A DNA stretch of 64,000 bases, from NCBI RefSeq assembly GCF_006539825.1, contig NZ_BJNT01000004.1, positions 186,001-250,000 of the forward strand. The letters run 5' to 3'. Source of the stretch: Corynebacterium variabile. Lineage in GTDB: Bacteria; Actinomycetota; Actinomycetes; Mycobacteriales; Mycobacteriaceae. The notes beneath the pieces were generated by a model. The model searched no databases and had not been told where the DNA came from. It saw only the letters and a list, made by a program, of their open reading frames with translations. Below, in pieces: positions 1 to 9,114 of the stretch; the first letter of the stretch is position 1, and each line of letters opens with the position of its first letter. The position numbers and the translations under genes are program-made.

Positions 1-110
1 CCGACCAGGTGCAGGAGGGCGTGCGTGACCTGCTCAGCCTCATCCAGGTCGAGGCGACCTTCCCCGACGGGACGAAGCTGGTCAGCGTCCACGACCCGAT
101 CGGGCAGTAG
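1..110 (+). CDS. ureA: Urease gamma subunit, C-terminal fragment
   Basis: Only the last 35 codons are in the window (reading frame starts at base 3, TAG at 108-110). The tail, with the [12 protein letters not shown] stretch followed by HDPIG, is the conserved C-terminus of the small gamma subunit of urease (UreA), which assembles with UreB and UreC into the nickel enzyme that hydrolyses urea to ammonia and carbamate. It is followed after 10 bases by the next gene, with a GAGGAG ribosome-binding site. The operon promoter lies outside the window. Confidence 0.93.
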
Positions 111-120
111 GAGGAGCGGC

Positions 121-879
121 ATGAGCATCACCGTCCTCTACGCCGGCGCCGAGGCGTCCACCCCGGATGCGCTCGCCAACGCCACCGGCGTCCCCGTCGT
201 CACCGGCCCCCGCGCGCTCGCCCCCTACCTGGAGCAGGCACGTCAGCAGGAGGAACCGCTGGTCGTCATCCCCGCCGGGACCGACCGTGACCTCACCTCG
301 GTCACCCAGGCCGCGCAGGCCCTGCAGTGGGCACAGCGTTCCGGTACCGAGGTCATTCTCGGCCCGTCGCTGGTGGACGCCACCCGCGCCATCGCCGAGA
401 TGCGTCGTCATCTGCGCGCCGCGAAAGGGAAGGACGCCGTCCTGATTCTCGCGAAGACGGTGGATCCTTTCGCGGACGCCGAGCTGCTGCGCAGGGTGCG
501 CCTGGCCCGGCAGTTCTCCGAGGACCTCGAGGTCGAGGTCGCTTTCGAGGGATCCTGGCCGACCCTGGAGAAGGCCCGCGAGCGGCTGCGTCTGCTGGGT
601 GCCCACGACGTCGTCGAGTTCCGCGCGGACCTAGCGCTGGGGGAGGACAGGGAGGATGCAGGCACGGCTGAACCACTGTTCCGGGCGTCCGCCCTGGCCA
701 CGGCGGTGGAGCGGGCGGCGCACACGGCAGTCCACCTGGCCCGTGACCACCATGACGACGGCATCGCCGTCGGCCTGCTCGCCGACCACGCCGCCGGGTT
801 CGCCCACTCCCACGGCGACGAAGACCATTCGCCTTCGCACCCCCGTTCCCACGGCCATTCGCACAGCCACCACCACTAG
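121..879 (+). CDS. CbiX/sirohydrochlorin-chelatase-like protein with histidine-rich tail, inside urease operon
   Basis: 252 residues, ATG at 121 behind GAGGAG. Residues about 105-172 match the C-terminal half of long CbiX-type chelatases: a DPFADAELL stretch, then a [19 protein letters not shown] stretch, then LGAHDVVEF. The usual G-H/R-G-S metal-site strand reads AKTV (111-114), so the catalytic histidine is missing, and the N-terminal half also lacks one. The last 24 residues contain 10 histidines, a tail like that of UreE-type nickel chaperones. It sits between ureA and ureB, 14 bases before ureB, and the operon has no ureE. Inference: a nickel carrier or store for urease maturation rather than a working chelatase. 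Known context: the CbiX-family enzyme CfbA inserts nickel into sirohydrochlorin. Fold assignment moderately sure; function unproven. Confidence 0.75.
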
Positions 880-893
880 GCAGGAGAACCACC

Positions 894-1298
894 ATGTCCG
901 GATCCGCCGCCGGCTACGGCACCGCACCGGGTGCCGCGCCGACCATCGAGCTCAACCCGGGGCGTCGTACCACCACGCTGCGGGTCGCCAACACCGGTGA
1001 CCGCGCCGTCCAGGTCGGTTCGCACTACCACTTCTTCGAGGTCAACCCCGCGCTCTCCTTCGACCGGGAGGCCGCCTGGGGCATGCACCTGTCCATCCCC
1101 TCCGGGCTGGCCGTGCGCTTCGAACCCGGAGACACCCGTGAGGTGGAGCTCGTGGACTTCGGTGGACGCCGCGTCCTGTTCGGTTTCGCGGGGCTGACCG
1201 AAGGAGCCCTCGATGACCCGGCCGTGAAGGCCGCCGCGCTGGAGAACCTTCCTGTCTTCCTGGCCAGCAATGACACACTCCCGGAGGAACTGAACTGA
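894..1298 (+). CDS. ureB: Urease beta subunit
   Basis: 134 residues, ATG at 894 with AGGAG seven bases upstream. Conserved UreB core: [20 protein letters not shown] near residues 29-48, then [13 protein letters not shown] and a [11 protein letters not shown] strand. The family is often about 100-120 residues; this one has an extended C-terminus after [12 protein letters not shown]. The beta subunit packs around UreC in the cytoplasmic urease trimer. Its TGA overlaps the ureC ATG by one base (TGATG), which indicates translational coupling. Confidence 0.96.
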
Positions 1299-3025
1299 TG
1301 AGCTCGATCGACCGACACCGCTACCAGGAGATCTACGGCCCCACCACCGGGGACACCGTCCGGCTGGCGGACACCGACCTCACCGTACGCATCACCCGTG
1401 ACTTCCTGGCGGACGCCTACGGCGACGAGTCCGTCTACGGCGGCGGCAAGGCTGTGCGCGACGGCATGGCCCAGGACCCCACCGCCACCGCGGCGACCGG
1501 CGCGCTCGACACCGTCATCACCGGCGTCATCGTGCTCGACGCCGTCGCGGGCGTGGTCAAGGGTGATGTCGGCATTCGCGACGGCCGCATCGTGAAGATC
1601 GGCAAGGCCGGCAACCCGAACACCCAGGACGGCGTGGACCCGGAGCTGGTCATGGGGCCAGGTACCGAGGTCATCGCCGGTGAACACCGCGTCCTCACCG
1701 CGGGTGGGGTGGACTCCCACATCCACTACATCACCCCGCAGCAGGCAGAACACGGCCTCGCCGGCGGCATCACCACCTTCTTCGGCGGCGGGACCGGACC
1801 GGCCGAGGGGACGCTCGGCACGACCTGCACCCCGGGCCCGAACGGCGTGCAGTTCATGCTGCGCGCCGCCGAGGGCATGCCGGTGAACACCGGCTTCCTC
1901 GGCAAGGGCTCCGGAGCCCTGCCCGAGGCGCTGGCCGAGCAGATCGTCGGCGGTGCCGCGGGCCTGAAGATCCACGAGGACTGGGGTGCGACCCCGGCGA
2001 ACATCCGCAACGCCATGGACGTCTGCGACGAGTACGACGTGCAGCTCGCCATCCACACCGACACCCTCAACGAGGGCGGCTTCTTCGAGTCCACGGCCCG
2101 GGCCTTCGGCGGACGCACCGTCCACACCTTCCACTCCGAGGGCGCCGGCGGTGGTCACGCCCCGGACATCCTCCGGGTCTCCGGCATGCCGAATGTGCTG
2201 CCCGCCTCCACCAACCCGACGCTGCCGTACACCGTGAACTCGGTGGAGGAACTGCTGGACATGGTGATGGTCTGCCACCACCTGTCCCACGACATCCCCG
2301 AGGACGTCGCCTTCGCCGACTCACGCGTGCGCGCCGAGACCATCGCGGCGGAGACGGTCTTCCACGATCTGGGCCTGATCAGCATCTTCAGTTCCGACTC
2401 ACAGGCGATGGGACGCGTCGGCGAGTCCTGGCAGCGCGCCTTCCAGACCGCCCACCACTGCAAGGTGGAGCTCGGTGAGCTGGAGGAGGACAAGGGCCAC
2501 GGTGACGACAACGAGCGCGTCCTACGCTACGTCGCGAAGATCACGGTCAATCCGGCGATCGCCCAGGGAATCGGTGAGCACGTCGGCAGTATCGAGCCCG
2601 GAAAGCTCGCCGACCTGGTGCTCTGGCCGGTGGAGACCTTCGGCGCGAAGCCCCGGCTGGTGCTGCGCCAGGGACGCATCGCCTACGCCCAGATGGGTGA
2701 CCCGAACGCCTCGCTGGCCACCCCGCAGCCGGTCTACTACCGCGACATGTTCGCCAACTACGGCACCGCACTGCAGGCCACCCGTGTGACCTTCATGAGC
2801 CAGGCCGCGATCGAGGCCGGCGTCCCGGAGCAGCTGGGCCTGACCTCGACCGTTCTGCCGGTGAAGAACACCCGCACCATCGGCAAGAAGGACATGGTGC
2901 GCAACAACCGTACCGCCGACATCCGCGTCGACCCGGACACCTACGAGGTCTCCGTCGACGGCGTCCACGCGACCATCGCCCCGGCGGAGTCCCTGCCGCT
3001 GGCGCAGAAGTTCTTCCTGTTCTGA
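1298..3025 (+). CDS. ureC: Urease alpha (catalytic) subunit
   Basis: 575 residues, full family length. Nickel-site residues are all visible: His141 and His143 (HIH), the lysine to be carbamylated, Lys224, in LKIHEDWG, the HTDTLNE and [15 protein letters not shown] histidines, the flap Cys-His motif [14 protein letters not shown], and the nickel aspartate in [12 protein letters not shown]. It hydrolyses urea in the cytoplasm. It starts in the ureB stop and ends 5 bases before ureF. That 5-base gap leaves no room for ureE, which follows ureC in many urease operons. Confidence 0.98.
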
Positions 3026-3775: not shown

Positions 3776-4438
3776 ATGACAACCTCCCCCGAGACCTCCC
3801 CTCTGGCCTCCTCCGATCCCGTGACCGGTTCCGGATCCCCGCTGCGCATCGGCATCGGCGGCCCCGTCGGCTCCGGCAAGACCGCCCTTATCGAGGCGCT
3901 CGTGCCGCTGTTCGTCGACGCAGGACGCCAGGTCGGCGTCATCACCAACGACATCTACACCCAGGAGGACGCCCTCCACGTCCGCCGTGAACTCGACGGC
4001 ATCATCGACCCGGAGCGCATCGTCGGCGTGGAGACCGGGTCCTGCCCGCACACCGCCGTGCGCGATGACCCGACGATGAACCTCATGGCCGCCGCCGACC
4101 TCATCGACGAGCACCCCGAGATCGACACCGTCTTCTTCGAGTCCGGCGGCGACAACCTCACCCTCACGTTCTCCCCGGCGCTGGTCGACGTCTTCGTCTT
4201 CGTCCTGGACACCGCCGAGGGGCAGAAGATGCCGAAGAAGCGCGGGCCGGGCATCACCGAGTCCGACATCCTCGTCATCAACAAGACCGACATCGCCCAG
4301 TACGTGCGCTGTGACCTTGACATCATGAACACGGATGCCATCGCGGTGCGCGACGGCAAGCCGGTGATCCTCACCGACTGCCTGGCGAACAAGGGCATTG
4401 CGGAGCTCGCGGCGGCCCTGGAGGAGTACCGGGCGTGA
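3776..4438 (+). CDS. ureG: Urease accessory GTPase UreG
   Basis: 220 residues. The ATG at 3776 follows AAAGGACACC, the best local ribosome-binding site; an upstream in-frame start at 3710 would overlap ureF and is not needed. The P-loop GPVGSGKT is at residues 29-36, followed by VGVITNDIYTQEDA and the metal-binding ETGSCPHTA (Cys-Pro-His). INKTDIA is the guanine-specificity motif. UreG supplies GTP energy and nickel to the UreD-UreF-apo-urease complex. Its stop overlaps the ureD start by four bases (GTGA). Confidence 0.97.
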   Translation: MTTSPETSPLASSDPVTGSGSPLRIGIGGPVGSGKTALIEALVPLFVDAGRQVGVITNDIYTQEDALHVRRELDGIIDPERIVGVETGSCPHTAVRDDPTMNLMAAADLIDEHPEIDTVFFESGGDNLTLTFSPALVDVFVFVLDTAEGQKMPKKRGPGITESDILVINKTDIAQYVRCDLDIMNTDAIAVRDGKPVILTDCLANKGIAELAAALEEYRA

Positions 4439-5439
4439 CGTCAGCCGTGCCGGTCGGGCGGCCTCCTGCCCCGCGACTCGACCCGGTGGCGCTGACGCCG
4501 CCGGTGCCGTGGGAGTTCGCGTCCTTCCTTGAGGATGCTGAGGACGCCGCCTCCGACGGCGTGCAGCCGGTAGGACGCCCCGGCAAGGTCGGCGTCCTCG
4601 ATCTGTCCCTGGGTGTGGACGCCGCGTCATCAGTGCAGAAGACCGGCGTGACCTCCCGGTACGTCAAGGCGCCAATGCAGTTCACCCGGCCGCTGTACAT
4701 TGATCCGGCCGATCCCGGGGAGGCCTTCGTCTATGTCCGGTCGACCGGTGGCGGGCTGGCACAGAACGACCGGATCCGGCAGCGGGTGACTCTCGGCGAC
4801 GGGGCGCGGGCGACGGTCACCACCCCGGCGGGCACGCCGGTGCACCGGATGAATGCCGGGCTCGCCACGCAGTGGATCAGTCTGACGGTGGGGGAGGACG
4901 CGGTGTGCGAGTACCTGCCCGGACAGAACACCCTCTTCGCTGGCTCGCGGTTACTGCAGGTCACGGATGTTGATCTGGCCGACTCGGCGACGCTGCTCGC
5001 TGCGGACGTCATCCTCACCGGACGTCTGGCCCGTGGTGAACGCGACCTCTTCGACGCCCTGGGCCAGTGCTGGCGGGTCGAGCGGGGTGGACGGCCGTTG
5101 CTCTCGGACATGATGTGCGTGGTCGGTGCCGGCCAGGGGCGCTCCGAGATGCTGCTGTCGCGCTGGCCGGTGTGGGGCACCGTGCTCATCGTGCCGCCGG
5201 CCGGTTCACCAGTGAAGGAACTGCTGGCGTCTGTCCGTGATCTGCTGGTGGAGCGGTGTGCAGGTGTCGCCGCCGAAGACCTGACCGCCGCAGCGTCCAC
5301 CATGGTCAACGATGCGGGGATCACCGTGCGGGTGGCGGGGGAGGACCCGGTCACCGTGCGCGCGATCGTGGATGCCGTGCACGATCACGCCCGTCGAGCC
5401 CTGCTGGGCCGGCCCGCCGTGGACCTGCGCCGCATGTGA
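4435..5439 (+). CDS. ureD: Urease accessory protein UreD (UreH)
   Basis: 334 residues with a GTG start in the ureG stop. UreD hallmarks are STGGGLAQNDRI, the stretch around TTPAGTPVHRMN, and the YLPGQNTLFAGSR region, all in the central beta-rich core. The N-terminus is about 60 residues longer than in many UreD proteins (Pro/Asp/Ala-rich, no signal peptide). It is the scaffold that docks UreFG onto UreABC. It is the last gene of the operon and is followed 20 bases later by a 27-bp inverted repeat. Confidence 0.94.
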   Translation: MTSAVPVGRPPAPRLDPVALTPPVPWEFASFLEDAEDAASDGVQPVGRPGKVGVLDLSLGVDAASSVQKTGVTSRYVKAPMQFTRPLYIDPADPGEAFVYVRSTGGGLAQNDRIRQRVTLGDGARATVTTPAGTPVHRMNAGLATQWISLTVGEDAVCEYLPGQNTLFAGSRLLQVTDVDLADSATLLAADVILTGRLARGERDLFDALGQCWRVERGGRPLLSDMMCVVGAGQGRSEMLLSRWPVWGTVLIVPPAGSPVKELLASVRDLLVERCAGVAAEDLTAAASTMVNDAGITVRVAGEDPVTVRAIVDAVHDHARRALLGRPAVDLRRM

Positions 5440-5459
5440 GCTGCCCCGGGATTCGGGGC

Positions 5460-5528
5460 TGTCGGCATCTTGGGACCGCAGGATGGAAAACCGCCGCGAA
5501 ACCATCCTGCGATCCCAAGATGCCGACA
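5460..5528. repeat. Dispersed palindrome, family 1, copy A (27-bp arms)
   Basis: Arms 5460-5486 and 5502-5528 are inverted copies matching at 26 of 27 positions, around a 15-base loop. The outer 14 bases TGTCGGCATCTTGG recur as the ends of a second palindrome at 50571-50640. It lies just past ureD and could end the urease transcript, but no clean T-run follows directly, and the shared outer sequence suggests a mobile or repeat-element origin. Confidence 0.85.
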
Positions 5529-5569
5529 TGCCCTCTTTCTGAGAAGACCTCCCCGTCACTCTTTCTGGC

Positions 5570-7226: not shown

Positions 7227-7386
7227 CGCTCCGGGCTCTGACGGACTCTGACGGTCCCTGACCAGCGGCGTCCCACGCCATCTCACGCGCCCGTAACCTG
7301 GGACGTCAGGTGAACGTCGCTTACACCCACGACGGAAACATCTACGGTCATGTGCATGTAATACGGCGTCCATAGCGTTGCCCGAC

Positions 7387-9114
7387 ATGACACCTCCAGT
7401 GGACACGCTCCAGCAGACCGCCACCCCGGCACCGGCCGTCCAGGCCGGTACATCGGGGTCCGGTACCTCACCTGCCTCCGCCGTCGACAACGTCGCCCCC
7501 GTCGGCACCGAAGACTTCTCCCTGCGCTTCGCCCCACGGCACTACCGGAAGTGGACGCCCGCCGCTGTCGCCGCGAGCGCCCTCGGCGGTATCGCCTACC
7601 TCGCCGACTTCTCCATCGGCGCGACCATCGGTGTCGAGCACGGCACCGTCAACGCTATCGGTGGCGTCCTCATCGCCGCACTCCTCATCTTCGTCTCCAG
7701 CTTCCCGTTGGCGTACTACGCCGCCCGCTACAACGTCGATCTCGACCTCATCACCCGCGGCTCCGGCTTCGGCTACAAGGGCTCGATCATCACGAACCTC
7801 ATCTTCGTGTCTTTCACCTTCATCCTCTTCGCCACCGAAGGCGCGATCATGGCCCAGGGCCTGAAGGTCGGCCTGAACATACCGCTGTGGATCGGCTACG
7901 CGGTGAGCTCGCTGATGATCATCCCGCTGGTCATCTTCGGTATGAAGCTGCTGTCGAAGCTGCACTCCTGGACCAACCCGTTGTGGCTGGTCATGATGTT
8001 CGTTCCCCTGGTCGTGCTCATCATCCAGGAGCCGGACTCGGTCGGTACCTTCCTCGACTACACCGGCGAGGACGACAAGTCCGTCTCCTTCGCCGCGATG
8101 ATGCTCGCCGCCGGCGTCTGCCTCTCGCTGACCGCCCAGATCGCCGAGAACATCGACTACCTGCGCTTCATGCCCCCGAAGACCGCCGCCAACCGGAAGT
8201 CCTGGTGGGCCGCGGTGATCTGCGGTGGCCCGGGCTGGGTCGTCCTCGGCGCGGTCAAGCAGATCATCGGCATCTTTCTCGCCGTCTACATGATCTCGGT
8301 CCTCGGCCAGGGCACGGACATCGCCGTCGAGCCGGTCAACCAGTTCATGAGTGAGTACAAGGAGATGATGCCCTCCTGGCTCGCCGTCACGCTCGCGGTG
8401 ATCCTCGTGGTCATCTCCCAGATCAAGATCAACACCACCAACGCCTACTGCGGTTCCCTGGCCTGGACGAACATCTACTCCCGTTCGTTCAAGAAGTACC
8501 CGGGTCGGGTCTGGTTCGTGGTCTTCAACGTCGGCATCTCGCTGGCGCTGATGGAGTTCAACATGTTCAGCGTCCTGAGCTTCGTGCTGAGCTTCTACTC
8601 CAACCTCGCTATCGCCTGGATCTTCACTGTCGCCGCGGACATCGTCATCAACAAGTACATCCTGGGCCTGTCGCCGAAGGTCCCGGAGTTCCGCCGTGGC
8701 ATGCTCTACGACTGGAACCCGGTCGGCATCACCTCGGTCATCCTGTCCGGCGGCATCTCCGTGGCCATGTTCTTCGGCGCCTTCGGTGACGGCATCTCCG
8801 CCTTCTCGCCGCTGTTCGCCGCGGTCATCGCGGTCGTCGTCACCCCGCTGGCCGCGGTGGTGACCAAGGGACGCTACTACCTGCGCCGCGCGCACGACGG
8901 CATCGACCTGCCGATGTTCGACGCCGACGGCAACCCGGTCGATGACCGGCTGACCTGCGCGATCACCGGCGAATCCTGCGAGCGACCGGACATGGTCGCC
9001 TCGGCGATCCCCGATGACAACGGGGGGACGCAGTACGTGTCATCACTGGCGCTCACGCTGGACGCCACAGGTCAGCACGTGCTCCCGGCCGACCCGCCGG
9101 ACGACAAGCGGTAG
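7387..9114 (+). CDS. NCS1-family nucleobase/allantoin permease
   Basis: 575 residues from ATG 7387 (TTG 7378 also in frame). After an Ala/Pro/Thr-rich cytoplasmic N-terminus of about 45 residues there are roughly 12 transmembrane segments in the purine-cytosine permease pattern, with SFPLAYYAARYNVDLDLITR and GSGFGYKGS near the substrate region and INTTNAYCGSLAWTNIYSR in the second half. These proteins import purines, pyrimidines, allantoin or thiamine precursors with Na+ or H+. Substrate cannot be read from sequence; nearby urease and xanthine dehydrogenase make purines or ureides plausible. A TAATAC -10 lies at about 7359, giving a very short leader. Confidence 0.85.
   Translation: MTPPVDTLQQTATPAPAVQAGTSGSGTSPASAVDNVAPVGTEDFSLRFAPRHYRKWTPAAVAASALGGIAYLADFSIGATIGVEHGTVNAIGGVLIAALLIFVSSFPLAYYAARYNVDLDLITRGSGFGYKGSIITNLIFVSFTFILFATEGAIMAQGLKVGLNIPLWIGYAVSSLMIIPLVIFGMKLLSKLHSWTNPLWLVMMFVPLVVLIIQEPDSVGTFLDYTGEDDKSVSFAAMMLAAGVCLSLTAQIAENIDYLRFMPPKTAANRKSWWAAVICGGPGWVVLGAVKQIIGIFLAVYMISVLGQGTDIAVEPVNQFMSEYKEMMPSWLAVTLAVILVVISQIKINTTNAYCGSLAWTNIYSRSFKKYPGRVWFVVFNVGISLALMEFNMFSVLSFVLSFYSNLAIAWIFTVAADIVINKYILGLSPKVPEFRRGMLYDWNPVGITSVILSGGISVAMFFGAFGDGISAFSPLFAAVIAVVVTPLAAVVTKGRYYLRRAHDGIDLPMFDADGNPVDDRLTCAITGESCERPDMVASAIPDDNGGTQYVSSLALTLDATGQHVLPADPPDDKR

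Follow-up and report, generated by a model that had tools for sequence, protein, structure and literature searches.

The chelatases SirB and CfbA bind metal through two His residues, which in SirB are located in the N-terminal half of the protein, and the second His pair of CfbA corresponds to Arg134 and Leu200 in the C-terminal half of SirB (accessible part of PMC11301274). In urease maturation, the absence of UreE is ordinary in the phylum of the actinobacteria, and UreG often carries the histidines there (accessible part of PMC2770081). According to the same part of that source, a His-rich UreG is present in most genomes that lack ureE, with two exceptions listed, and a nickel donor gap, with neither UreE nor His-rich UreG, is noted for Frankia and Bradyrhizobium.

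The window analysed is a stretch of 64,000 nucleotides of Corynebacterium variabile DNA, and a urease operon with an additional gene, designated as X, is located at its beginning. The features of the operon are as follows.

1..110, forward strand: 3' part of ureA, coding for the urease gamma subunit and truncated at the edge of the window, with the stop at 108-110 and a frame that runs on upstream in L001
121..879, forward strand: gene X, 252 aa, putative pseudo-chelatase with His-rich tail, read as an ORF, with relatives in 32 Corynebacterium and 9 other operons
121..744, forward strand: chelatase-like core of X, residues 1-208, from hhalign to CbiX and the predicted core model
748..876, forward strand: residues 210-252 of X, comprising the conserved HxDDG...DHxxGxAHSH segment and the His-rich tail, with invariant residues over 38 rows
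894..1298, forward strand: ureB (urease beta), Pfam PF00699, E 6e-41
1298..3025, forward strand: ureC (urease alpha), Pfam PF00449 and PF01979
3031..3765, forward strand: ureF, Pfam PF01730
3776..4438, forward strand: ureG, TIGR00101 above cut-off, with a stretch ahead of the P-loop that contains no His
4043..4051, forward strand: CPH codons of UreG, read from the sequence, which we take to encode the nickel-site motif of UreG
4435..5439, forward strand: ureD, Pfam PF01774

The order ureA-X-ureB-ureC-ureF-ureG-ureD with tight spacing was read from ORFs and Pfam matches. X starts 10 bases after the stop of ureA, and ureC and ureF are 5 bases apart with no ureE between them. Across the genome (3.19 Mb in 68 contigs, with a completeness of 99.99%), UreE_N had no match at an E of 0.001, and C. 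glutamicum, used as the positive control of this search, gave a match. The operon order and the missing UreE with its 5-base ureC-ureF gap, both claimed in the original prediction, are confirmed by the ORFs, the Pfam matches, and the whole-genome search, which revealed no ureE elsewhere. The His-rich tail was also described correctly, as 10 of the last 24 residues are His by a count on the translation of X.

Behind ureD, positions 5455-5535 of the window form a near-perfect long stem-loop (fold energy -60.7 kcal/mol, z -10.5). Further downstream of the operon, the gene at 7378-9114 codes presumably for a permease-like membrane protein, with no Pfam match above cut-off. This gene may belong with the urease because its product is 49% identical over 531 residues with that of the gene directly upstream of ureA in genome G905 (L279 901-2577).

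Urease_alpha was above cut-off in 91 of 242 Corynebacterium genomes and UreE_N in 59, and a 13-row X profile matched 33. By set arithmetic, the 91 urease-positive genomes consist of 59 with UreE only and 32 with X only, with none having both and none having neither. Below-cut-off UreE_N matches in G134, G198, and G212, all genomes without ureC, were left out, as was G241, where a urease match fell below cut-off and no urease gene was identified in the stretch. Because only some first-look candidates of each genome (6 to 21) are scored by the profile searches, a very diverged X could be missed. X was matched in one of the 151 genomes without urease above cut-off. This is G187, whose diverged X copy (L196 4152-5003) has no His tail motif. 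The alternation of X and ureE, which the original prediction proposed to look for across ureases, is found in Corynebacterium: X accompanies only the ureases of genomes that have no UreE.

A-B-C-E-F-G-D is the order in 56 of the 59 UreE operons; two have ureC split in two frames, and in one the contig ends after ureE. Of the 32 Corynebacterium X operons, 31 have X directly between ureA and ureB, the latter being either a separate gene or fused to ureC, and the contig of the remaining genome (G024) starts inside X. The open frame of X extends upstream in G157 and G158 and is listed first for that reason, with the actual match located after ureA. A separate ureB is present in 24 of the 32 operons and a ureB fused to ureC in eight; the single-frame fusions are at L140, L142, L143, L154, L156, L161, L169, and L175. 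Frames split in two were seen for X in G028, ureG in G169, and ureC in G058. The contig of G146 ends after ureG, and the operon of G010 is decayed, with a stop inside X and ureC reduced to a fragment, so that both genes are broken.

In the search of the order (397 genomes), 20 genomes matched, three of them Corynebacterium, and the strong X matches were those of Corynebacterium; three second matches had no locus. Sixteen of the 17 loci outside Corynebacterium were read as CbiX, the one not recovered being L103 (E 7e-4). At L102, also outside Corynebacterium, the CbiX part of a CbiX-type gene region is followed by a His-rich stretch, and a region of this kind is a possible starting point for the X tail. 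The search of the class (216 genomes) revealed one further true X, in genome G743 of another family; among the 10 loci besides this one and the window's own, nine are CbiX-like and L257 was not recovered. In g102, the genus of G743, X was found at E < 1e-50 in 8 of 111 genomes, in one of them twice. Another 40 genomes of this genus matched with a best E of 4.5e-9 or weaker, and both loci examined from these, L291 and L292, match the CbiX profile. Genome G1018 of g102 has two X-type urease operons (L295 and L296). In all nine g102 X operons, from eight genomes, X is located between ureA and ureB, and UreE was not found within the stretch read. The observation is confirmed as real, with X relatives in 32 Corynebacterium and nine g102 urease operons, beyond chance.

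Direct searches with X yielded little of use. None of the Pfam families, the CbiX model and UreE_N included, was matched by X even at an E of up to 1, and its one NCBIfam match was far under the cut-off of that family. Against PDB, the X sequence gave two matches at chance level, and a profile of 10 X proteins gave five weak matches, none of them named chelatase (best E 0.0034). When the window genome was searched with PF01903, one other gene only was found, and not X. A single-sequence X search matched a canonical CbiX gene weakly (BLASTP 39% over 98 residues). When 41 X rows without tails were aligned with 23 CbiX rows in hhalign, the probability was 98.7% (E 3e-16, 143 columns), while the controls UreA, B, E, F, G, and D reached at most 2.3% against X, with UreE at 0.2%.

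The two AlphaFold models of X used only seven close sequences and are of low to moderate confidence, with pLDDT of 58.7 for whole X and 69.0 for the core (pTM 0.63). In VIA-align, class II chelatases occupy rows 1-38 for the whole-X model, followed by Z 6.3, with SirB as the best row (Z 10.2, rmsd 5.2, 204 aligned). For the core model they occupy rows 1-43, followed by Z 7.6, and Ni2+-bound SirB is the best (Z 10.3, rmsd 3.8, 201 aligned). FetB (9b86) and DR2241 (2jh3), two rows of these top lists, are presumably chelatase-like, and 2jh3 also matches a CbiX sequence. A plain Foldseek search of the X model gave FetB first, many periplasmic binding proteins next, and CbiK fifth. The structural comparison with CbiX and CfbA suggested in the original prediction did not refute it, as class II chelatases rank first for both predicted models. 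Profile homology and predicted models together support X as a diverged relative of class II (CbiX/SirB) chelatases with a similar predicted fold. Unlike the CbiX/SirB/CfbA proteins (PF01903), X lies under Pfam detection, carries a His-rich tail, is coded in a urease operon, and, in the window protein, has no ligand His in its N-terminal half. With UreE (PF02814), X shares a His-rich C-terminus and a place in urease operons of genomes that have no copy of the other, but it has no sequence relation to UreE and takes a different position in the operon.

The window protein lacks an HG[ST] motif, and its Thr59 is aligned with the His of the CbiX [ST]HSK motif. Over 38 X rows, this second ligand column has Thr in 20, His in 4, and other residues in 14; L012 is one of the four with His, and these four speak against a ligand loss throughout the family. 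In the original prediction, X was read as having the C-terminal half of CbiX with the metal-site His lost. The homology to CbiX holds, but the missing His in the C-terminal half of X says little because the two-half SirB has Arg134 and Leu200 at those places (accessible part of PMC11301274). Such a loss is normal for SirB, and the telling one is that of the N-terminal half. Residues invariant in all 38 rows include Pro51, Arg56, Arg95, Gly214, Gly226, His229, and His231, and the DPFADAEL stretch is nearly invariant; the alignment does not include G028, G010, and G024.

The histidines of the three operon types were counted with UreG starts set at the nearest ATG, which is a rough rule. In Corynebacterium UreE operons, at least three His are present in the last 20 residues of UreE in 59 of 59 and at the N-end of UreG in 0 of 58. 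X has at least seven His within 30 residues in all 32 Corynebacterium operons and at least ten in all nine of g102. UreG of the X operons has at least three His at the N-end in none of 39 (0/30 in Corynebacterium, 0/9 in g102) and at the C-end in none of 40 (0/31 and 0/9). In g102 operons without UreE and X, UreG has at least three His at one end in six out of six, and in such operons of the order this is so for 13 of 15 distinct UreG. The order sample comprised 18 stretches, with UreG read in 16 and that of G435 counted twice; the stretch of G895 is truncated where its contig ends. Fewer His were counted in G322 (two) and G087 (one), the exceptions, both with unsure starts, and G905 has three at the C-end. 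UreE of G401b, one of two UreE operons in the order, has no His in its last 20 residues.

Because operons with neither UreE nor X mostly carry the histidines on UreG and X operons do not, X probably supplies the His-based nickel handling that otherwise comes from UreE or a His-bearing UreG. The X operons look like a third way beside these two. In the His-bearing UreG of mycobacteria, plants, and others, histidines outside UreE serve urease maturation (accessible part of PMC2770081), as would those of X; in the X operons, they lie on a separate protein of predicted chelatase fold, and the ends of UreG are His-poor. The absence of UreE alone is ordinary in actinobacteria, which is the second correction to the first reading, beside that on the His of the C-terminal half.

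In a UreC tree of Corynebacterium with 31 X and 59 UreE rows, the X operons are on one branch (SH-aLRT 100). A second tree, of 70 rows, took 14 of the 32 Corynebacterium X rows and 14 of the 59 UreE-type rows (other samples of UreE rows were 20 or 14 of 59) and left out the long-branch rows G064 and G401b, the latter a UreE-bearing operon, the duplicate G435b, and G885. G010 is in no UreC tree, and G058 is only in that of Corynebacterium alone. In the 70-row tree, X operons (14 from Corynebacterium and nine from g102) form one branch (100/100), which joins with the UreE rows (94/89) and two f66 ureases in one group (100/100). This group stands apart from the usual UreE-less actinobacterial ureases, including six g102 operons without X, and an origin of X as part of that usual lineage is accordingly not favoured. 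Since the X operons form one UreC clade, the complementarity of X and UreE reflects few events and not 91; many independent swaps find no support, as the UreC trees need one change. The trees are unrooted, hence they give no direction of change, and X, UreE, and one further lineage form a three-way split without resolved branching order.

Since X operons of Corynebacterium and g102 share one UreC branch, a transfer of the entire operon from one distant actinobacterium to another is probable. X and UreC diverge in step (Mantel r 0.91, with 0 of 2000 permutations as high, for 37 operons, G028, G010, G024, and G058 left out), and X diverges faster, with a mean distance of 0.62 versus 0.25. The original prediction had seen in X a replacement of UreE by a repurposed chelatase. 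Its repurposed chelatase is supported by a diverged class II relative with the usual ligands lost, with a His tail, and, in Corynebacterium, only in UreE-less genomes. Entry by displacing UreE does not follow from the data, given the three-way split of the UreC tree and the ordinary absence of UreE in the phylum.

From sequence comparisons, it seems fairly probable that X is a urease nickel metallochaperone derived from a CbiX/SirB-type chelatase, which does the job of UreE or of a His-bearing UreG. In such a mechanism, the two-half chelatase core with its usual metal ligands lost would act as a folded scaffold, in which the cleft may have a role. The HxDDG...DHxxGxAHSH segment and the His-rich tail would bind, collect, and buffer Ni(II), and X would hand the nickel over to UreG, the ends of which have no His cluster. 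UreD, UreF, and UreG would then insert it into urease, and X would be required at low nickel. Tails rich in His are expected to bind nickel in the Hpn-type and CooJ-type nickel proteins, as in X; X differs in having a chelatase-like core.

The best surviving alternative, though unlikely, is that X, tied to urease, stores nickel or buffers it for detoxification, with no hand-over of its own to UreG. Hpn of Helicobacter is the model for such a function. The tails of X are in places very long, with up to 41 His in G116, and their length and spacing vary widely among relatives, which speaks for a store. Strict alternation with UreE and retention of the folded core along with the tail speak against it.

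It is quite improbable that X takes part in the assembly or the structure of the urease apoenzyme as a partner protein, with the tail being secondary. Such a role would suit the position of the gene between the subunit genes ureA and ureB and the co-divergence of X and UreC, but not the invariance of His229 and His231 in all 38 rows or the lack of His clusters on UreG of X operons.

There is still less reason to think that another protein, HypB or SlyD, supplies the nickel and X is incidental. HypB aids urease in Helicobacter pylori (accessible part of PMC2770081), and it was above cut-off in 6 of the 24 X genomes tested. As a general nickel donor, HypB finds no support in most genomes: none was above cut-off in the window genome, and among the 22 X genomes of this test in which urease is retained, 17 had none either. 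Furthermore, all 32 UreE-less Corynebacterium ureases have X, one of them in a decayed operon.

That X is still a working tetrapyrrole chelatase is barely credible in spite of its CbiX homology, its chelatase-like predicted fold, and the four rows out of 38 with a His in one of the ligand columns. The window protein has neither of the N-half ligand His, and a separate CbiX/SirB gene, present in the window genome and in 23 of the 24 X genomes tested, makes X dispensable for the CbiX/SirB job; the copy of the window genome keeps both His motifs.

No description of an X-type protein was found in the open-access papers searched, and the original prediction knew of none for such a replacement of UreE. 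With X as a metallochaperone, the sequence data lean towards a broader proposal as well, that X is the founding member of a third class of nickel donors for urease. It would be a pseudo-chelatase which presents nickel to UreG with a fold that holds nickel or cobalt for a tetrapyrrole in related proteins, travels between distant actinobacteria in a self-sufficient ureAXBCFGD cassette, and stands in for UreE. Otherwise, the urease system of X genomes could be mistaken for an incomplete one. If true, this would answer the question of who gives nickel to UreG in ureases with neither UreE nor a His-rich UreG, and X would be a case of a metal-inserting enzyme turned metallochaperone.
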